Below are positions 2,218 through 17,765 of a stretch of DNA of 20,155 nt, one piece after another. Source of the stretch: a virus. The stretch's first letter is position 1. Each line of letters begins with the position of its first letter. A program made the translations under genes and the position numbers. The stretch is from positions 1-20,155 of IMG/VR virus record IMGVR_UViG_3300020404_001526; one strand, given 5' to 3'. The notes under the pieces were generated by a model that did no database searches, had not been told where the DNA came from, and was given only the letters and a program-made list of their open reading frames with translations.

Positions 2218-3734
2218 ATTGTGTACCTATACGGTGATCTTGATTCCACGACATGTAGATTATGCCGTGCTCGTGTAACAGCGGTATAGAACACTCGATG
2301 CTCGTCATCCTGATCAGGATTGTTTACCGCTGGATATGAGGAGTCGGTCAGTAGCAGGATGTTGTCATCCTCGCCGCCCTTCATACGGTGAATGGTGGAT
2401 AGACTGATGCGAGGCTTTGTAAGATCCTCACCACGGCGGCGAACAGCTCCCATGTAACGGATATCCTCGTTGGACATATTGACCACCACCTCTGGCTTCA
2501 ACTCCTGCGGTGCAATCAATCCATGCTCGGCAACCAGATTGTCATAGTTGTGCGACCCCTGCGGATCGACAGCATCAAACGTCTTTGCTGCGGCACGTTT
2601 CAATAATGCCTTGTCCCCTGACTTTGGCATGTAGGTGTACATTTTCTTGATCTCACCCACACTGGCAGTCTCGCCCCTTGCTAACCGCTCCCATACGTCC
2701 ATGGCCTCAAGCAGTTCAAGCGAGATCACAGACTTGCCAAACCGCTCAAACAAATAACCGTCATCGCGTAAACTATTGTGAATTGCGTTCAAGGCTTTGT
2801 TGGTTCTAGCCATAATCGTCCACGAACCTTCATCAATATTCACATCATACCAATTCATGTGAAAGTCTACAGATCCGGCCTCGTCTCTCGGACTCCATTT
2901 CTTTTCCTGTCTGATATGTATCCTGTTCACAATGTCGTTGGACAAATCAAACACGGTTGCCGGAACACGATAACTCTTATTCAAAACCACTTTATTGTCA
3001 CAAGCATTCATAAAACTATGCAGATCAACACCGTTCCAACGGTGGATACACTGATCATCGTCCCCCGCGTACCAGACCTTGGCGGCTCTTTCCTTTAATA
3101 TATTTACTTGTTTCCATTGTAGTGGCGTTAGATCCTGCGCTTCATCTACAATCAAAATCTCCAAGGCAGGTCCTGTGCCTTGGTTAACAAACAATTCAAT
3201 CATGTCCGTGAAATCAAACTTACCAGTATCAGACTTATATTCCTGATACACCTGTTCTACACGGCGCAACATCGACCAATGCAGGTCATAGTCCCCAAGG
3301 TCGTTATACTCCTCCTCCAAGGACACACAGCGCAGTTTAGAGCGGCTGATGACGTTAAGATAGCGATTACCCTCCCTCATGGACATGGGGATCATACCCT
3401 CCTCCATAACTTCTGCGGTGCTGCGATCAAACTCCATACCTAATATATTGCTCAACACACGAAGATCACTAGGCTGTATCGTCTCGTGCTTCTCCATGCC
3501 CAACCAGTTAAAGCCAATCGAATGTAGCGTCCTGAACCACGGCACATCCTTTTCGGTAAGCTGTAGCTCGACACCTACACGCTCCCTTGCCTCTTGAATG
3601 GATTTACGAGAGAACGATACGAAACCAATCCTGTCTGGTGAAGTTCCGTTGGCTAACTCCTGACGCACGATCTCAATCATCGTGTGCGTTTTACCGCAAC
3701 CAGGTGGACCAAAGATAAGTGTTTCTTCAGCCAT
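2214..3734 (-). CDS. UvrD/Rep-like superfamily 1 DNA helicase
   Basis: A 506-residue ATP-dependent helicase. Motifs in order: Walker A GPPGCGKT (9-16), motif Ia-like FSRKSIQEAR, motif II DEAQD (197-201), motif III GDDDQCIHRW (224-233), motif IV SYR (254-256), motif V STIHRMKGGE, and motif VI YTAVTRARHNL near the C terminus. It is shorter than cellular UvrD (about 720), as phage homologues often are, because the 1B/2B inserts are reduced. It would unwind or remodel DNA during phage replication or recombination. ATG 3734 overlaps the preceding gene by 8 bp. Complete motifs suggest an active ATPase; polarity and partners cannot be told from the sequence. Confidence 0.95.
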   Translation of the reverse strand: MAEETLIFGPPGCGKTHTMIEIVRQELANGTSPDRIGFVSFSRKSIQEARERVGVELQLTEKDVPWFRTLHSIGFNWLGMEKHETIQPSDLRVLSNILGMEFDRSTAEVMEEGMIPMSMREGNRYLNVISRSKLRCVSLEEEYNDLGDYDLHWSMLRRVEQVYQEYKSDTGKFDFTDMIELFVNQGTGPALEILIVDEAQDLTPLQWKQVNILKERAAKVWYAGDDDQCIHRWNGVDLHSFMNACDNKVVLNKSYRVPATVFDLSNDIVNRIHIRQEKKWSPRDEAGSVDFHMNWYDVNIDEGSWTIMARTNKALNAIHNSLRDDGYLFERFGKSVISLELLEAMDVWERLARGETASVGEIKKMYTYMPKSGDKALLKRAAAKTFDAVDPQGSHNYDNLVAEHGLIAPQELKPEVVVNMSNEDIRYMGAVRRRGEDLTKPRISLSTIHRMKGGEDDNILLLTDSSYPAVNNPDQDDEHRVFYTAVTRARHNLHVVESRSPYRYTI

Positions 3735-13969: not shown

Positions 13970-14139
13970 TATTTGTCCTCCATTACTGAACTAAACTTGA
14001 CGCATGTACCTTGGCACTTGTGACAATCAACAACGTCACCATATGCATCAGACTCAAAACCATGACCAGCACACCAGTCACAGTAAATAATGTATTCGAT
14101 CCGCGAACCACGAACCTCTATCTTTTCTGCTAATTCCAT
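13969..14139 (-). CDS. Small DnaJ-type zinc-finger protein
   Basis: A 56-residue protein with CDWCAGHG (20-27) and CHKCQGTC (39-46), which resemble two CxxCxGxG repeats of the DnaJ central zinc-finger domain and probably bind one zinc. No J domain is present. It is the first gene of the leftward block and starts at ATG 14139, 6 nt after GGAGGA; a TTG at 14151 in frame is rejected. The leader folds so that the ribosome site is in a hairpin loop. Function unknown; a protein-protein or RNA-binding role is possible. Confidence 0.8.
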   Translation of the reverse strand: MELAEKIEVRGSRIEYIIYCDWCAGHGFESDAYGDVVDCHKCQGTCVKFSSVMEDK

Positions 14140-14236: not shown

Positions 14237-14498
14237 TTTGTTACAGTAGTTTTGCTGAAAAAAACTTTTGAAAACTTTTTCAAATAGGGTGTAACAAGTG
14301 TAACAAGTGTAACAAACCTGTCTTTTTACTAGGGTGGCTGCGCCTTTGACCTTGTTACACTTCTCTTGATTTTTGTTACACTTGTTACACTTGTTGAGAC
14401 AAAAAAGACAATATGCACCGATTCCAGGAATTTTCGTGTTTTTAAAAAGTTTGCAAAAACGCCATTTTATGGGGTAGAAGTGTGACAAGTGTAACAAG
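14237..14498. repeat. TGTAACAAG iterons in both orientations with 24-bp inverted repeat
   Basis: Nine-base units TGTAACAAG stand in direct array at 14290-14316 (three, the last ending A), inverted at 14351-14359 and 14372-14398 (the last one imperfect), again direct at 14481-14498 (TGTGACAAG then TGTAACAAG), with one more inverted copy at 14237-14245. The arms 14293-14316 and 14372-14395 are a perfect 24-bp inverted repeat around a 55-nt loop. An A/T-rich palindrome TTTGAAAA-CT-TTTTCAAA lies at 14267-14284. The 376-bp region 14140-14515 between divergent gene blocks has no convincing gene. It fits a replication origin, an operator array or a packaging (TerS) site. Confidence 0.85.
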
Positions 14499-14515
14499 AA
14501 AGAAAATTCTTGCAG

Positions 14516-15064: not shown

Positions 15065-15443
15065 AAACCGACATGGTGGAGGCGTACCTGACGTACATAT
15101 AGTATGGGCAGGGCTTGTGTTTTGGTTAGAATTAAAAACAACGAAAAACAATAGCGTGAGAATATCCCCACATCAAATTGCTTGGAATACCGCGTATTCG
15201 CGTTCGGGCGGCTTGTCTTTCATCTTGGTTAAGCACCTCTCTTCGGGCGATCTATTTTTGTTTCGGGGTGCGAAATCCCTGGACCTCGGGCGTTCGGGAC
15301 TGGCTACTGAAGCCGAGTTTCGGGGTTCGGGGTACGATAACCTATGGGCAGCAATTCGGGAGTCGGGGTTCGGGACTTCGGGGTTCGGGGATCATCGAGC
15401 CCTGGACCAGGGGTCAGGGGCTGGGGCACCAGTACAACAGTAA
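14988..15443 (+). CDS. VRR-NUC-like nuclease with repeat-derived tail
   Basis: A 151-residue protein. Residues 1-92 match the VRR-NUC branch of PD-(D/E)XK nucleases: GGGVPDVHIV (D35), FWLELKT (E48, K50), and SPHQIAWN (Q63); these are the usual catalytic residues. Such proteins cut branched or flapped DNA, for example as resolvases before packaging. Residues from about 93 on (GAKSLDLGRSG...SGFGTSGFGD...GSGAGAPVQQ) are low-complexity and correspond to TTCGGG repeats in the DNA, so they are probably an acquired disordered tail. It overlaps the TerS gene by 77 bp and ends before the terminator at 15471. Confidence 0.85.
   Translation: MPTPEANFWNTLKRNLPTNCHTTRIENRHGGGVPDVHIVWAGLVFWLELKTTKNNSVRISPHQIAWNTAYSRSGGLSFILVKHLSSGDLFLFRGAKSLDLGRSGLATEAEFRGSGYDNLWAAIRESGFGTSGFGDHRALDQGSGAGAPVQQ
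15203..15390 (+). repeat. Cluster of TTCGGG(G) repeats inside the nuclease gene
   Basis: About ten plus-strand copies of TTCGGG, several extended to GGTTCGGGG, between 15203 and 15390, for example near 15203, 15242, 15259, 15292, 15318-15332, 15352 and 15367-15388. Spacing is irregular. The same element returns in non-coding DNA at 16281-16346. Confidence 0.75.
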
Positions 15444-15493: not shown

Positions 15494-16216
15494 CTAATGC
15501 ATCACGATTGCAATTGATTTCGCTTTAGTCTTTGCGCCACTACATAGCTTACAAGTATCACAAGTGGCACGACGACCAGCTTCCTTACTTGCTGGACATA
15601 AAATTTCCGAACCTTTAATGACTTGGTCAACGTTATCAATAACGCGAAATGTGCGCTGGCCATTATCCCAAGCCTTTAATGCTTCCGCTTTGGTATCCGC
15701 GCTAATCATATAAAGGTTAGGGTCAACATCCAGAATGTCCGATTGATGGCTGTATGCGGTATGCCCTATGGCATCGGTCAAAAGACTGTCCCAAATATAA
15801 CTCGGCACAGCCGCGCCATCGCCATAAGTACCAATCCGAACCATACGACCCGCGCCAAGTTTAGCAATTGCATCATGTCCGGTCGCGACCGGATACCCGC
15901 CTTTTTGCAAATGCTTCCAAACATGCAAAACGCCTTGAAACAATTTAACGTAACATGTGCGACCTTTGGCATGTTTTCCGGTCGCGTTTATGTCAACGGC
16001 TGTACCCCTATGTTTACAATTGCCGCATATCGAAAAATCCAAACCTAGCTTATTGTTAAGCATAGGGTCGTTGCCATTGTCGCATAGGATATATGTCTGG
16101 ACCATGTTTCCGGTTTTTGTATTGCTACTTTTCACGATAGCAATCACAACGATATTCTCGCTAGGGTCGATAAGTGATGGACCCCTATAGATAATTGAGC
16201 TATTGATTTTTTCCAT
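15494..16216 (-). CDS. DUF7227-like phage protein with Cys motifs
   Basis: A 240-residue protein of a phage family I recognise by sequence, probably DUF7227, of unknown function. Visible blocks: SIIYRGPSLID (start), KTGNMVQTYI, LDFSICGNCKHRG, GRTCYVKLFQGVLHVW, VRIGTYGDGAAVPSYIW, GQRTFRVID, and a C-terminal CPASKEAGRRATCDTCKLCSG. The Cys pairs CGNC, CDTC and others could bind zinc or an iron-sulphur cluster. The length matches relatives. It forms its own transcription unit: promoter at 16244-16272, leader hairpin, gene, terminator at 15471-15492. Ribosome site AUGGAGG lies 8 nt before ATG 16216. Confidence 0.83.
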   Translation of the reverse strand: MEKINSSIIYRGPSLIDPSENIVVIAIVKSSNTKTGNMVQTYILCDNGNDPMLNNKLGLDFSICGNCKHRGTAVDINATGKHAKGRTCYVKLFQGVLHVWKHLQKGGYPVATGHDAIAKLGAGRMVRIGTYGDGAAVPSYIWDSLLTDAIGHTAYSHQSDILDVDPNLYMISADTKAEALKAWDNGQRTFRVIDNVDQVIKGSEILCPASKEAGRRATCDTCKLCSGAKTKAKSIAIVMH

Positions 16217-16239
16217 TGTTAATCCTCCATAACTAACAA
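16216..16239 (-). promoter_or_regulatory. Leader hairpin with AUGGAGG in the loop
   Basis: Eight-bp stem UUGUUAGU / AUUAACAA (one G-U pair) encloses the loop UAUGGAGG, the ribosome site of the 240-residue gene. The stem reaches the start codon. The predicted transcript begins at about 16237, so the hairpin is the whole 5' leader. Confidence 0.5.
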
Positions 16240-16280: not shown

Positions 16281-16346
16281 ATTCGGGATATCTTCCAGGA
16301 ATATCGGGCAGCAGCGGGTTCGGGGTTCGGGGTTCGGGTTTCGGGA
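16281..16346 (+). repeat. Non-coding TTCGGGG repeat cluster
   Basis: One TTCGGG near 16281, then four in near-tandem at 16319-16346 with a 7-bp step (GGTTCGGGGTTCGGGGTTCG and onward). It lies between a promoter and a terminator, in DNA without a gene. It is the same element as inside the nuclease gene at 15203-15390. Confidence 0.8.
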
Positions 16347-16354
16347 TAATAAAA

Positions 16355-16378
16355 ACGGGGAGCCTCGAGGCTCCCCGT
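16355..16378 (-). terminator. Intrinsic terminator of the 69/34-residue gene unit
   Basis: A 24-nt perfect palindrome (arms 16355-16366 and 16367-16378, GC-rich with CTCGAG at the centre) followed on the minus strand by TTTTATTATCC. It ends the unit that starts at the promoter 16800-16827. Confidence 0.85.
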
Positions 16379-16380
16379 CC

Positions 16381-16401
16381 TACTAGTATGGAGGACTAGT
16401 A
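16381..16401 (-). ncRNA. 3'-UTR hairpin with anti-Shine-Dalgarno loop CCUCCAU
   Basis: In the minus-strand transcript, perfect 7-bp arms UACUAGU / ACUAGUA enclose the 7-nt loop CCUCCAU. The loop is the exact complement of AUGGAGG, the ribosome site of four genes in this module. Complementarity with the leader at 16721-16735 extends to 10 nt (GUCCUCCAUA with UAUGGAGGAC). It is placed after the last stop codon (16407) and before the terminator, like a 3'-UTR-derived small RNA. Alternatively it is only an inverted copy of the leader palindrome. Confidence 0.5.
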
Positions 16402-16406
16402 TTAAA

Positions 16407-16511
16407 TCAATCATTCCTGGTGACGTATAGCATGGTTACCAGTCCGACCACACAAAAGACGAGATAGCCTATTACGAATAGGCTATCCCAATCTAGGTTA
16501 TGAAACGTCAC
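16407..16511 (-). CDS. 34-residue single-span membrane protein
   Basis: A very short protein beginning MTFHNLDWDSLF, with one hydrophobic span of about 18-20 residues (VIGYLVFCVVGLVTMLYV, residues 13-30) and the polar end TRND. It starts with GTG 16511, overlapping the upstream stop by four bases (GTGA), the classic layout of coupled translation. The short acidic N terminus and one span suit an inner-membrane microprotein; a holin- or antiholin-type role is possible but not shown. Too short for usual gene callers. Confidence 0.65.
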   Translation of the reverse strand: MTFHNLDWDSLFVIGYLVFCVVGLVTMLYVTRND

Positions 16512-16717: not shown

Positions 16718-16781
16718 TGTTGTCCTCCATAGACAGGTTAAAAAAAGAGGGGTGCTGTTCGCGTGTCTGGTCGGCGGTCAT
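16707..16781 (-). CDS. Possible 24-residue leader peptide
   Basis: ATG 16781 preceded by GAGGGG opens a 24-codon frame (MTADQTREQHPSFFNLSMED and on) that ends 11 nt inside the 69-residue gene. Its ribosome site lies in the 5' arm of the terminator-like hairpin and its codons cover the 3' arm, so translating it would prevent the hairpin. This is an attenuator design on paper; the peptide itself may not matter. Confidence 0.35.
   Translation of the reverse strand: MTADQTREQHPSFFNLSMEDNNGL
16721..16735 (-). promoter_or_regulatory. Leader hairpin with AUGGAG in the loop
   Basis: Four-bp stem UGUC / GACA with loop UAUGGAG before ATG 16717. The stem is short and may be marginal alone. It is the best match to the anti-Shine-Dalgarno hairpin at 16381-16401 (10 nt). 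Confidence 0.4.
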
Positions 16782-16792
16782 GGCGACCCCTC
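16740..16792 (-). terminator. Terminator-like hairpin between promoter and gene (attenuator or small RNA)
   Basis: Minus-strand arms GAGGGGU (16792-16786) and ACCCCUC (16753-16747) enclose a structured 32-nt segment that can form an inner GGUC-GCCAU-GACC hairpin, and seven U follow directly. The predicted transcript starts at about 16793, so most transcription from this promoter could yield an RNA of roughly 50-55 nt unless the stem is broken. Confidence 0.6.
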
Positions 16793-17039: not shown

Positions 17040-17353
17040 TAGGCTATAATCCTTCCATTGGCTCTAGCTTCCTCCGCATATTGAGTGATGGTTTTATCCG
17101 CTTTGAAATATCTGTCTCGCTCAACACCTAATCCATATGCAAACTTTGTGTTTTGCAATTTAGATAGGCTCACTGTTCCTAGCTCTGGACAACCATGACC
17201 AAGGTCACACAATCCAAACAGCGTGTCTCCGTCTTCGTCCATCTCACTGATCAACCATGTGCACGCCCCACCACCAAAAAATTTAACGACTGGGGTATTG
17301 CTCCAATTATTTGATCTTAGCTTCTTTTCAAGTTCTTTAGTTAATAGTTTCAT
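17039..17353 (-). CDS. DUF2958-like protein
   Basis: A 104-residue protein matching the DUF2958 pattern: LLTKELEKKLRSN at the start, PVVKFFGGGACTWLISEMDEDGDTLFGLCDLGHGCPELGTVSLSKL in the middle (WxxxE, FGL, ELGxxSLxxL), and LGVERDRYFKADKTI near the end. DUF2958 is common on plasmids and in phages; its function is unknown. The leader has two hairpins and AUGGAGG as ribosome site. Confidence 0.85.
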   Translation of the reverse strand: MKLLTKELEKKLRSNNWSNTPVVKFFGGGACTWLISEMDEDGDTLFGLCDLGHGCPELGTVSLSKLQNTKFAYGLGVERDRYFKADKTITQYAEEARANGRIIA

Positions 17354-17357
17354 TGTT

Positions 17358-17374
17358 TAGCCCTCCATTGGCTA
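17358..17374 (-). promoter_or_regulatory. Leader hairpin with AUGGAG in the loop
   Basis: Five-bp stem UAGCC / GGCUA with loop AAUGGAG, directly before ATG 17353. It is a third member of the AUGGAGG-loop family in this module. Confidence 0.4.
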
Positions 17375-17744: not shown

Positions 17745-17765
17745 GTTCTAATCCTCCATTGGCTG

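Follow-up and report, generated by a model that had tools for sequence, protein, structure and literature searches.

A candidate anti-Shine-Dalgarno hairpin module of uncultured phages whose loop co-varies with the phages' own leaders

Introduction

C-rich loops complementary to the Shine-Dalgarno (SD) sequence (anti-SD loops) are carried by the CcsR RNAs. These small RNAs of Rhodobacter sphaeroides, CcsR1-4, are released from the ccaF1 3′ untranslated region (3′UTR) (PMC8625941); they are four tandem chromosomal RNAs, stress-induced, with no phage involved and no known co-evolving regulon. In the alpha-r14 or 'cuckoo' small RNAs of the Rhizobiales (SmelA075, NfeR1), an ultraconserved anti-SD loop sits on stems of differing sequence (PMC3927594, PMC10746234), the loop CCUCCUCCC occurring in each of at least three hairpins per RNA and the targets being bacterial. 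Translation of the icaR mRNA of Staphylococcus aureus is blocked when an anti-SD motif in its 3′UTR binds the SD (PMC3868564). The Betaproteobacteria toxic small RNA family RF02278 combines a UCCUCC-loop hairpin with a terminator in 57-92 nt (PMC4603805), and the c4 antisense RNA of phages P1 and P7 uses loops that pair with the ribosome-site region of a phage mRNA (PMC12197685).

The module described here shares features with each of these systems and differs from each. Like the alpha-r14 RNAs it presents an anti-SD loop on stems of variable sequence; unlike them it consists of one hairpin (one relative, L211, has two modules in tandem), with a loop, CCUCCA(A)U, tuned to phage leaders. Like 3′UTR-derived small RNAs of the CcsR type, it lies at a 3′ end and is closed by an intrinsic terminator, and like the icaR motif it is complementary to an SD on its own predicted transcript; however, icaR concerns a single mRNA, pairing in cis and a long 3′UTR, whereas the phage module is short and has several candidate target leaders. 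The hairpin-plus-terminator layout is that of RF02278, which is encoded on the bacterial chromosome and, as far as is known, is not aimed at co-evolving targets. As with c4, a phage RNA is predicted to have a loop complementary to the ribosome-site region of phage mRNA, but c4 has long complementarity to one antirepressor mRNA and belongs to temperate phages.

Materials and Methods

The DNA analysed (hereafter the window) is a fragment, 20,155 bases long, from an IMG/VR record of an uncultured virus. The proteins encoded beside the hairpin, and the hairpin itself, served as queries to collect relatives from IMG/VR. Base pairs were counted in a register set by hand, in place of a covariance model, as MAFFT misregisters the arms when loop length varies. 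Leaders were called as ATG starts with GGAG 8-16 nt upstream and open reading frames (ORFs) of at least 40 codons, a rule under which some called leaders are false. Each hairpin was compared with T-GGAG leaders from the same contig and from other contigs.

Results

The window encodes a family A DNA polymerase, a UvrD-like helicase, an AEP-type primase, a C5 methyltransferase and a small terminase. Megablast gave no DNA-level match of the whole window to named phages, and likewise none for the relative L308. Among 84,980 bacterial and archaeal genomes, the hairpin-with-terminator pattern had 0 matches and the protein encoded downstream of the hairpin was found on three MAG contigs only, pointing to no host. 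A repeated AAGTGTAACA, both direct and inverted, lies at 14287-14506, upstream of the small terminase gene. Behind the terminators (16300-16346 and 15314-15390) lie tandem CCCGAACCC / CCCGACCCGA repeats, which fill intergenic regions; hairpin-bearing relatives have them too, and their copy number differs among close relatives.

An earlier note on this sequence had described a 7-bp perfect stem with loop CCUCCAU between the stop of a 34-residue gene and a terminator. This is what the minus strand holds at 16401-16381 (TACTAGT CCTCCAT ACTAGTA, the stem being perfect over 7 bp and the loop 7 nt long), between the stop of a 34-codon ORF and a strong terminator, whose U-tract is short (5 U). The elements of the locus are as follows.

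16381..16401, minus strand: anti-SD hairpin, stem UACUAGU/ACUAGUA, loop CCUCCAU, retained with a covarying stem in about 17 distinct relatives.
16351..16377, minus strand: intrinsic terminator CGGGGAGCC-UCGA-GGCUCCCCG-UUUUU, closing the module 3 nt after the hairpin; an equivalent terminator lies close behind the hairpin in every relative.
16407..16511, minus strand: 34-codon ORF with a GTG start, immediately before the hairpin, whose sequence can pair with GGUCGGACUGGUA of this ORF.
15494..16216, minus strand: gene directly downstream, phrog_2554-like, 240 aa; in relatives the hairpin and terminator precede this or a kin gene.

Among 200 dinucleotide shuffles of the window, 0 gave a hairpin of at least 7 bp around CCTCCAT, of which the real window has one. 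Hairpin-plus-terminator units with random 5-mer loop cores averaged 0.33 in five near-complete genomes of relatives, against 8 for CTCCA, one of the 8 being the antisense of a leader. Rfam searches of the window and three relatives returned sub-threshold look-alikes only, placing the module in no family tested. The RF02278 covariance model reached 18.7 bits in L116, below its gathering cut-off of 50, with no match in the window's record, and c4 antisense RNA (RF01695) had no match among the listed Rfam hits.

The hairpin-plus-terminator module is retained in about 17 distinct IMG/VR relatives. Its position is constant, separating two transcription units and preceding the phrog_2554-like gene or its kin, with CTCCA in the loop and the terminator close behind. 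In their early-side hairpins the loop residues CTCCA are invariant while the stems covary, with arms TACTAGT/ACTAGTA, TTCTAGT/ACTAGAA, TTATGGT/ACCATAG, TCGTAGT/ACTACGG, CATGAC/GTCATG, GTTATAGT/ACTATAAC, CTTGTAGT/ACTACAAG, TCTTGTTG/CAACAAGG and TCTTGTTA/TAACAAGA. Every pair in the 17 distinct hairpins is canonical, with 2-5 pair types per position. Canonical cells number 102/102, against 57 ± 7 when the 3′ arms were dealt anew, a total that is partly so by construction since hairpins were gathered by stem length; that choice does not account for the diversity of compensating pairs found at a single syntenic position. As judged by this comparison of sequences, the hairpin structure is under selection. 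A sister group (L226, L234, L239, L241 and L250) is without the hairpin and has different leaders, mostly of AAGGAGG type as judged by eye; T-GGAGG leaders account for 216 of 342 in hairpin phages versus 31 of 82 in relatives without it (p = 4e-5).

Two other readings of the stem were set aside. The stem TACTAGT/ACTAGTA is not a signal by itself, a scan for TACTAGT-N7-ACTAGTA having given many unrelated contigs with other loops, and the many unrelated stems that stand in place of ACTAGT led us to reject a restriction or DNA-protein site. In L211, two anti-SD hairpin-plus-terminator modules lie in tandem (2250-2440). In L249, L243, L248 and L253, a TTATAAT box stands a few nucleotides before the hairpin, in some cases with a preceding CACCTGG-n-CCAGGTG palindrome; in that subgroup the box could be a dedicated promoter for a hairpin RNA.

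The window has 14 occurrences of ATGGAGG, the complement of its loop, where 2.8 would be expected. The earlier note had placed this sequence upstream of the starts at 16216, 16717, 17353 and 17744, which proved correct, and it also stands upstream of 13969. The 10-nt complementarity that had been claimed for the 16717 leader is likewise real, the match TATGGAGGAC being exact. The leaders of genes 17744, 17353, 16717, 16216 and 13969 are the five best-pairing ones in the window; they are listed with their predicted pairing runs (G-U allowed), followed by one further element of the 16717 mRNA.

17748..17759, minus strand: leader of gene 17744, AUGGAGGAUUAG, 12 bp including G-U, with the best net energy, −10.0 kcal/mol.
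17358..17368, minus strand: leader of gene 17353 (DUF2958), AUGGAGGGCUA, 11 bp including G-U.
16722..16731, minus strand: leader of gene 16717, UAUGGAGGAC, 10 bp; leader and hairpin share one predicted transcript.
16220..16231, minus strand: leader of gene 16216 (phrog_2554-like), UAUGGAGGAUUA, 12 bp including G-U; SD flanked by UUGUUAGU/AUUAACAA.
13975..13983, minus strand: leader of gene 13969, a probable fifth target, AUGGAGGAC, 9 bp.
16747..16792, minus strand: structured 5′ leader of the 16717 mRNA, stem GAGGGGU/ACCCCUC, a separate element, conserved and directly after a TATAAT promoter.

Duplex energies for the five range from −14.3 to −17.5 kcal/mol, or −3.8 to −10.0 net of opening costs. 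The leaders of the primase and other replication-side genes in the window pair over just 4-6 nt, and one further 9-nt run, at a start near 3395, falls inside the helicase gene. We therefore rejected the idea that all ATGGAGG leaders are equal targets, as their flanks set these five apart from most others.

The SD of the 17353 leader can lie in a small hairpin loop, CCUAGCC-AAUGGAG-GGCUAAAC (DNA CCTAGCC-AATGGAG-GGCTAAAC, 17346-17374, minus strand), a hairpin kept in L285, L292, L305, L306 and L307; such a loop could meet the CCUCCAU loop as a kissing pair. The outer stem of the structured 5′ leader at 16747-16792 covaries (GAGGGGU/ACCCCUC, GUGGAGU/ACUCCAC, GUCGGGCGU/ACGCCCGAC) and encloses a core, CGnnAUGACCGCCGACCAGnnnnGCGAACAGC, that hardly varies; in many cases a U-run comes next. 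This element has no Rfam match, recurs in L002, L003, L004, L006, L011, L210, L217, L225, L229, L231 and L243, and could be a riboswitch, a ribozyme or a put-like antiterminator.

Folding predictions depend on context. Alone, or with 30 nt of upstream RNA, the window hairpin forms with a probability of about 0.9-0.99; when at least 60 nt of upstream mRNA are included, the probability falls to about 0, the sequence being predicted to pair instead with GGUCGGACUGGUA inside the 34-aa ORF. Its isolated energy is −4.7 kcal/mol, reaching −7.4 elsewhere. On these predictions, the idea that the hairpin always forms in the full 3′UTR was rejected for the window's sublineage: in the window, L004, L006, L186, L093 and L229, and also in L298, it is predicted not to form in the longer 3′UTR. 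In the window's lineage its formation would therefore require either processing or ribosomes translating the 34-aa ORF. We speculate that this need could itself be a control point. In most other lineages the hairpin is predicted to form in context: it does so in L281, L282, L288, L290, L303 and the capsid-side copies described below, while in L285, L286, L287, L289 and L291 its formation depends on the length of upstream RNA included.

Several genes per phage share an SD context beyond what 16S rRNA pairing explains. Hairpins pair better with leaders of their own contig than with permuted ones: the five best runs average 8.9 nt against 8.2 (p = 1e-4 for 19 contigs, 9e-4 and 2.5e-4 for 11 classes), and duplex energies are −15.1 against −13.7 kcal/mol (p = 5e-5, and 2.5e-4 for 11 classes), all of these p values serving as guides only because the contigs are related and permutation overstates their independence. 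The signal is carried by three changes in the loop or 5′ arm, namely GCCCUCCAAU with GGAGGGCAA, CCUCCAAU with UAUUGGAGG and ACCUCCAUAG with CUAUGGAGGU, which fall on separate branches of the downstream-protein tree, although recombination is likely.

In L284, the leaders of about six genes read GGAGGGCAA and the hairpin is UUGCCCUCCAAU, which contains UUGCCCUCC; orthologues of these genes elsewhere mostly have GGAGGAC, GGAGGAU or similar, with the exception of gene L284|1, which also has GGAGGGC in some other phages. In L281 and L282, the loop CCUCCAAU accompanies leaders UAUUGGAGG, in two separate genes in L282, where orthologues have UAUGGAGG. L283 has these same leaders on a contig that does not cover the hairpin, and the loop CCUCCAAU is seen in L228 and L238. 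L291 and L309 combine the hairpin ACCUCCAUAG with leaders CUAUGGAGGU. The genes whose leaders changed along with the loop are several and non-homologous within one phage. The earlier note had held that a stem kept while the loop varied independently of the leaders would count against it, and had suggested a search for covariation; early-side copies show the opposite pattern, with compensated stem changes, a fixed loop core and three loop or flank changes each matched by the phage's own leaders.

Several relatives have a second copy of the hairpin, CCTAGTCCTCCATACTAGG and similar, with a terminator, behind a gene matching the phrog_371 major head protein; the window is too short to include the head protein gene. 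The capsid-side copy in L316 reads CCTCCAA, as does the early copy of the same genome (L288). In L320 (CCTAGTTAAGAGCTAGG) and L380 the capsid-side stem is kept and the loop lost (TTAAGAG), and CCTCC is absent from this side in L339 and L341. A second C-rich motif, TCCTCCCTAAACT, occurs just before a second terminator, about 60-120 nt past the head protein stop, in L325, L329, L313, L305, L286 and L320.

Discussion

Comparative evidence from sequence establishes the module in its structure and placement, its complementarity to leaders and the co-evolution of hairpin and leader. Our favoured explanation, which we consider likely, is a phage-encoded anti-SD RNA that masks a set of leaders belonging to the same phage, lowering their translation, possibly as a late shut-off of early genes. 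The hairpin and terminator would make up a small riboregulator, about 60 nt long, with which a phage operon ends on its 3′ side. Its loop CCUCCAU, together with the 5′ arm (UAGUCCUCCAU), would pair with the extended SD region U(A)UGGAGGA(C/U)UA of several own leaders; the weak stem (−5 to −7 kcal/mol) would offer the loop as a seed before opening, so that 9-12 bp form, hiding the ribosome site and so reducing translation of the target genes. We infer that the phage produces a lasting RNA, that this RNA works in trans, as an mRNA 3′ end or a processed small RNA, against a set of early leaders, and that it represses by SD occlusion, with late timing provided by the capsid-side copy, which would help to shut off the early set late in infection. 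That it represses rather than activates is an assumption drawn from SD occlusion. A tentative extension, which we think possible though doubtful, is an RNA developmental switch in which accumulating 3′ ends of head protein mRNA silence an early regulon with a co-evolving extended SD, alongside the matching early-region copy.

The exact 10-bp match to the leader heading the same predicted transcript would also fit pairing purely in cis, whereby the 3′UTR hairpin silences or destabilises its own mRNA (gene 16717 in the window) and other leader matches are by-products of a shared SD style; in icaR, for instance, pairing between a UCCCCUG motif and the SD lays the mRNA open to RNase III (PMC3868564). 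We regard this as unlikely, given that the matching change is common to about six leaders of separate genes in L284 and two in L282, that the best net energy in the window belongs to gene 17744, on another transcript, and that a copy lies behind the head protein gene, far from the target leaders. Matching leader changes in several genes of one phage point to action on own leaders and not within the same operon alone. Of the targets that the earlier note had proposed, the phage's own leaders thus stand, extended beyond the operon, whereas host mRNAs do not: the extended match (AU before and AC/GC after GGAGG) fits phage leaders rather than generic AAGGAGG, so that nothing supports action on host mRNAs. 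CCUCC can nevertheless pair with any GGAGG, and RF02278, of identical layout (a CUCC-loop hairpin plus terminator), has members reported as toxic in Escherichia coli (PMC4603805), which would suit a generic anti-SD decoy blocking host mRNAs; yet complementarity that runs past GGAGG into phage-specific flanks and tracks phage leader changes, together with the 18.7-bit score against a cut-off of 50, makes host shut-off improbable.

Activation is scarcely more credible than host shut-off. Leaders with the SD in a small hairpin loop (17353 and 16216, for example) might be freed or protected through a kissing contact, raising early-gene translation or mRNA half-life, but it is the SD itself that would be paired, and this normally keeps the 30S subunit from binding; moreover, SD-loop hairpins are not general among the targets. 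Least probable of all, to our minds, is an ordinary 3′-end hairpin or protein-binding site whose SD match is incidental, CCUCC fitting any SD. The truly invariant core is just five bases, GGAGG is fixed by 16S rRNA and the loop can be lost from capsid-side copies, all of which would agree with it; however, flanking bases unconstrained by rRNA co-vary across several leaders per phage, and the freedom of the stem sequence to vary argues against a DNA site.

To our knowledge, no anti-SD loop RNA aimed at a co-evolving set of its own leaders has been described from marine phages, and our literature search found none. The natural loop-leader variants (the window, L284, L281 and L291) are ready-made compensatory mutants, which makes specificity directly testable. 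Should the capsid-side copy work in the proposed way, base pairing rather than a protein repressor would govern the passage from early to late genes, which would explain early-gene timing in these phages, and the match between loop and SD flank would offer a readable signature of riboregulation for uncultured viruses.
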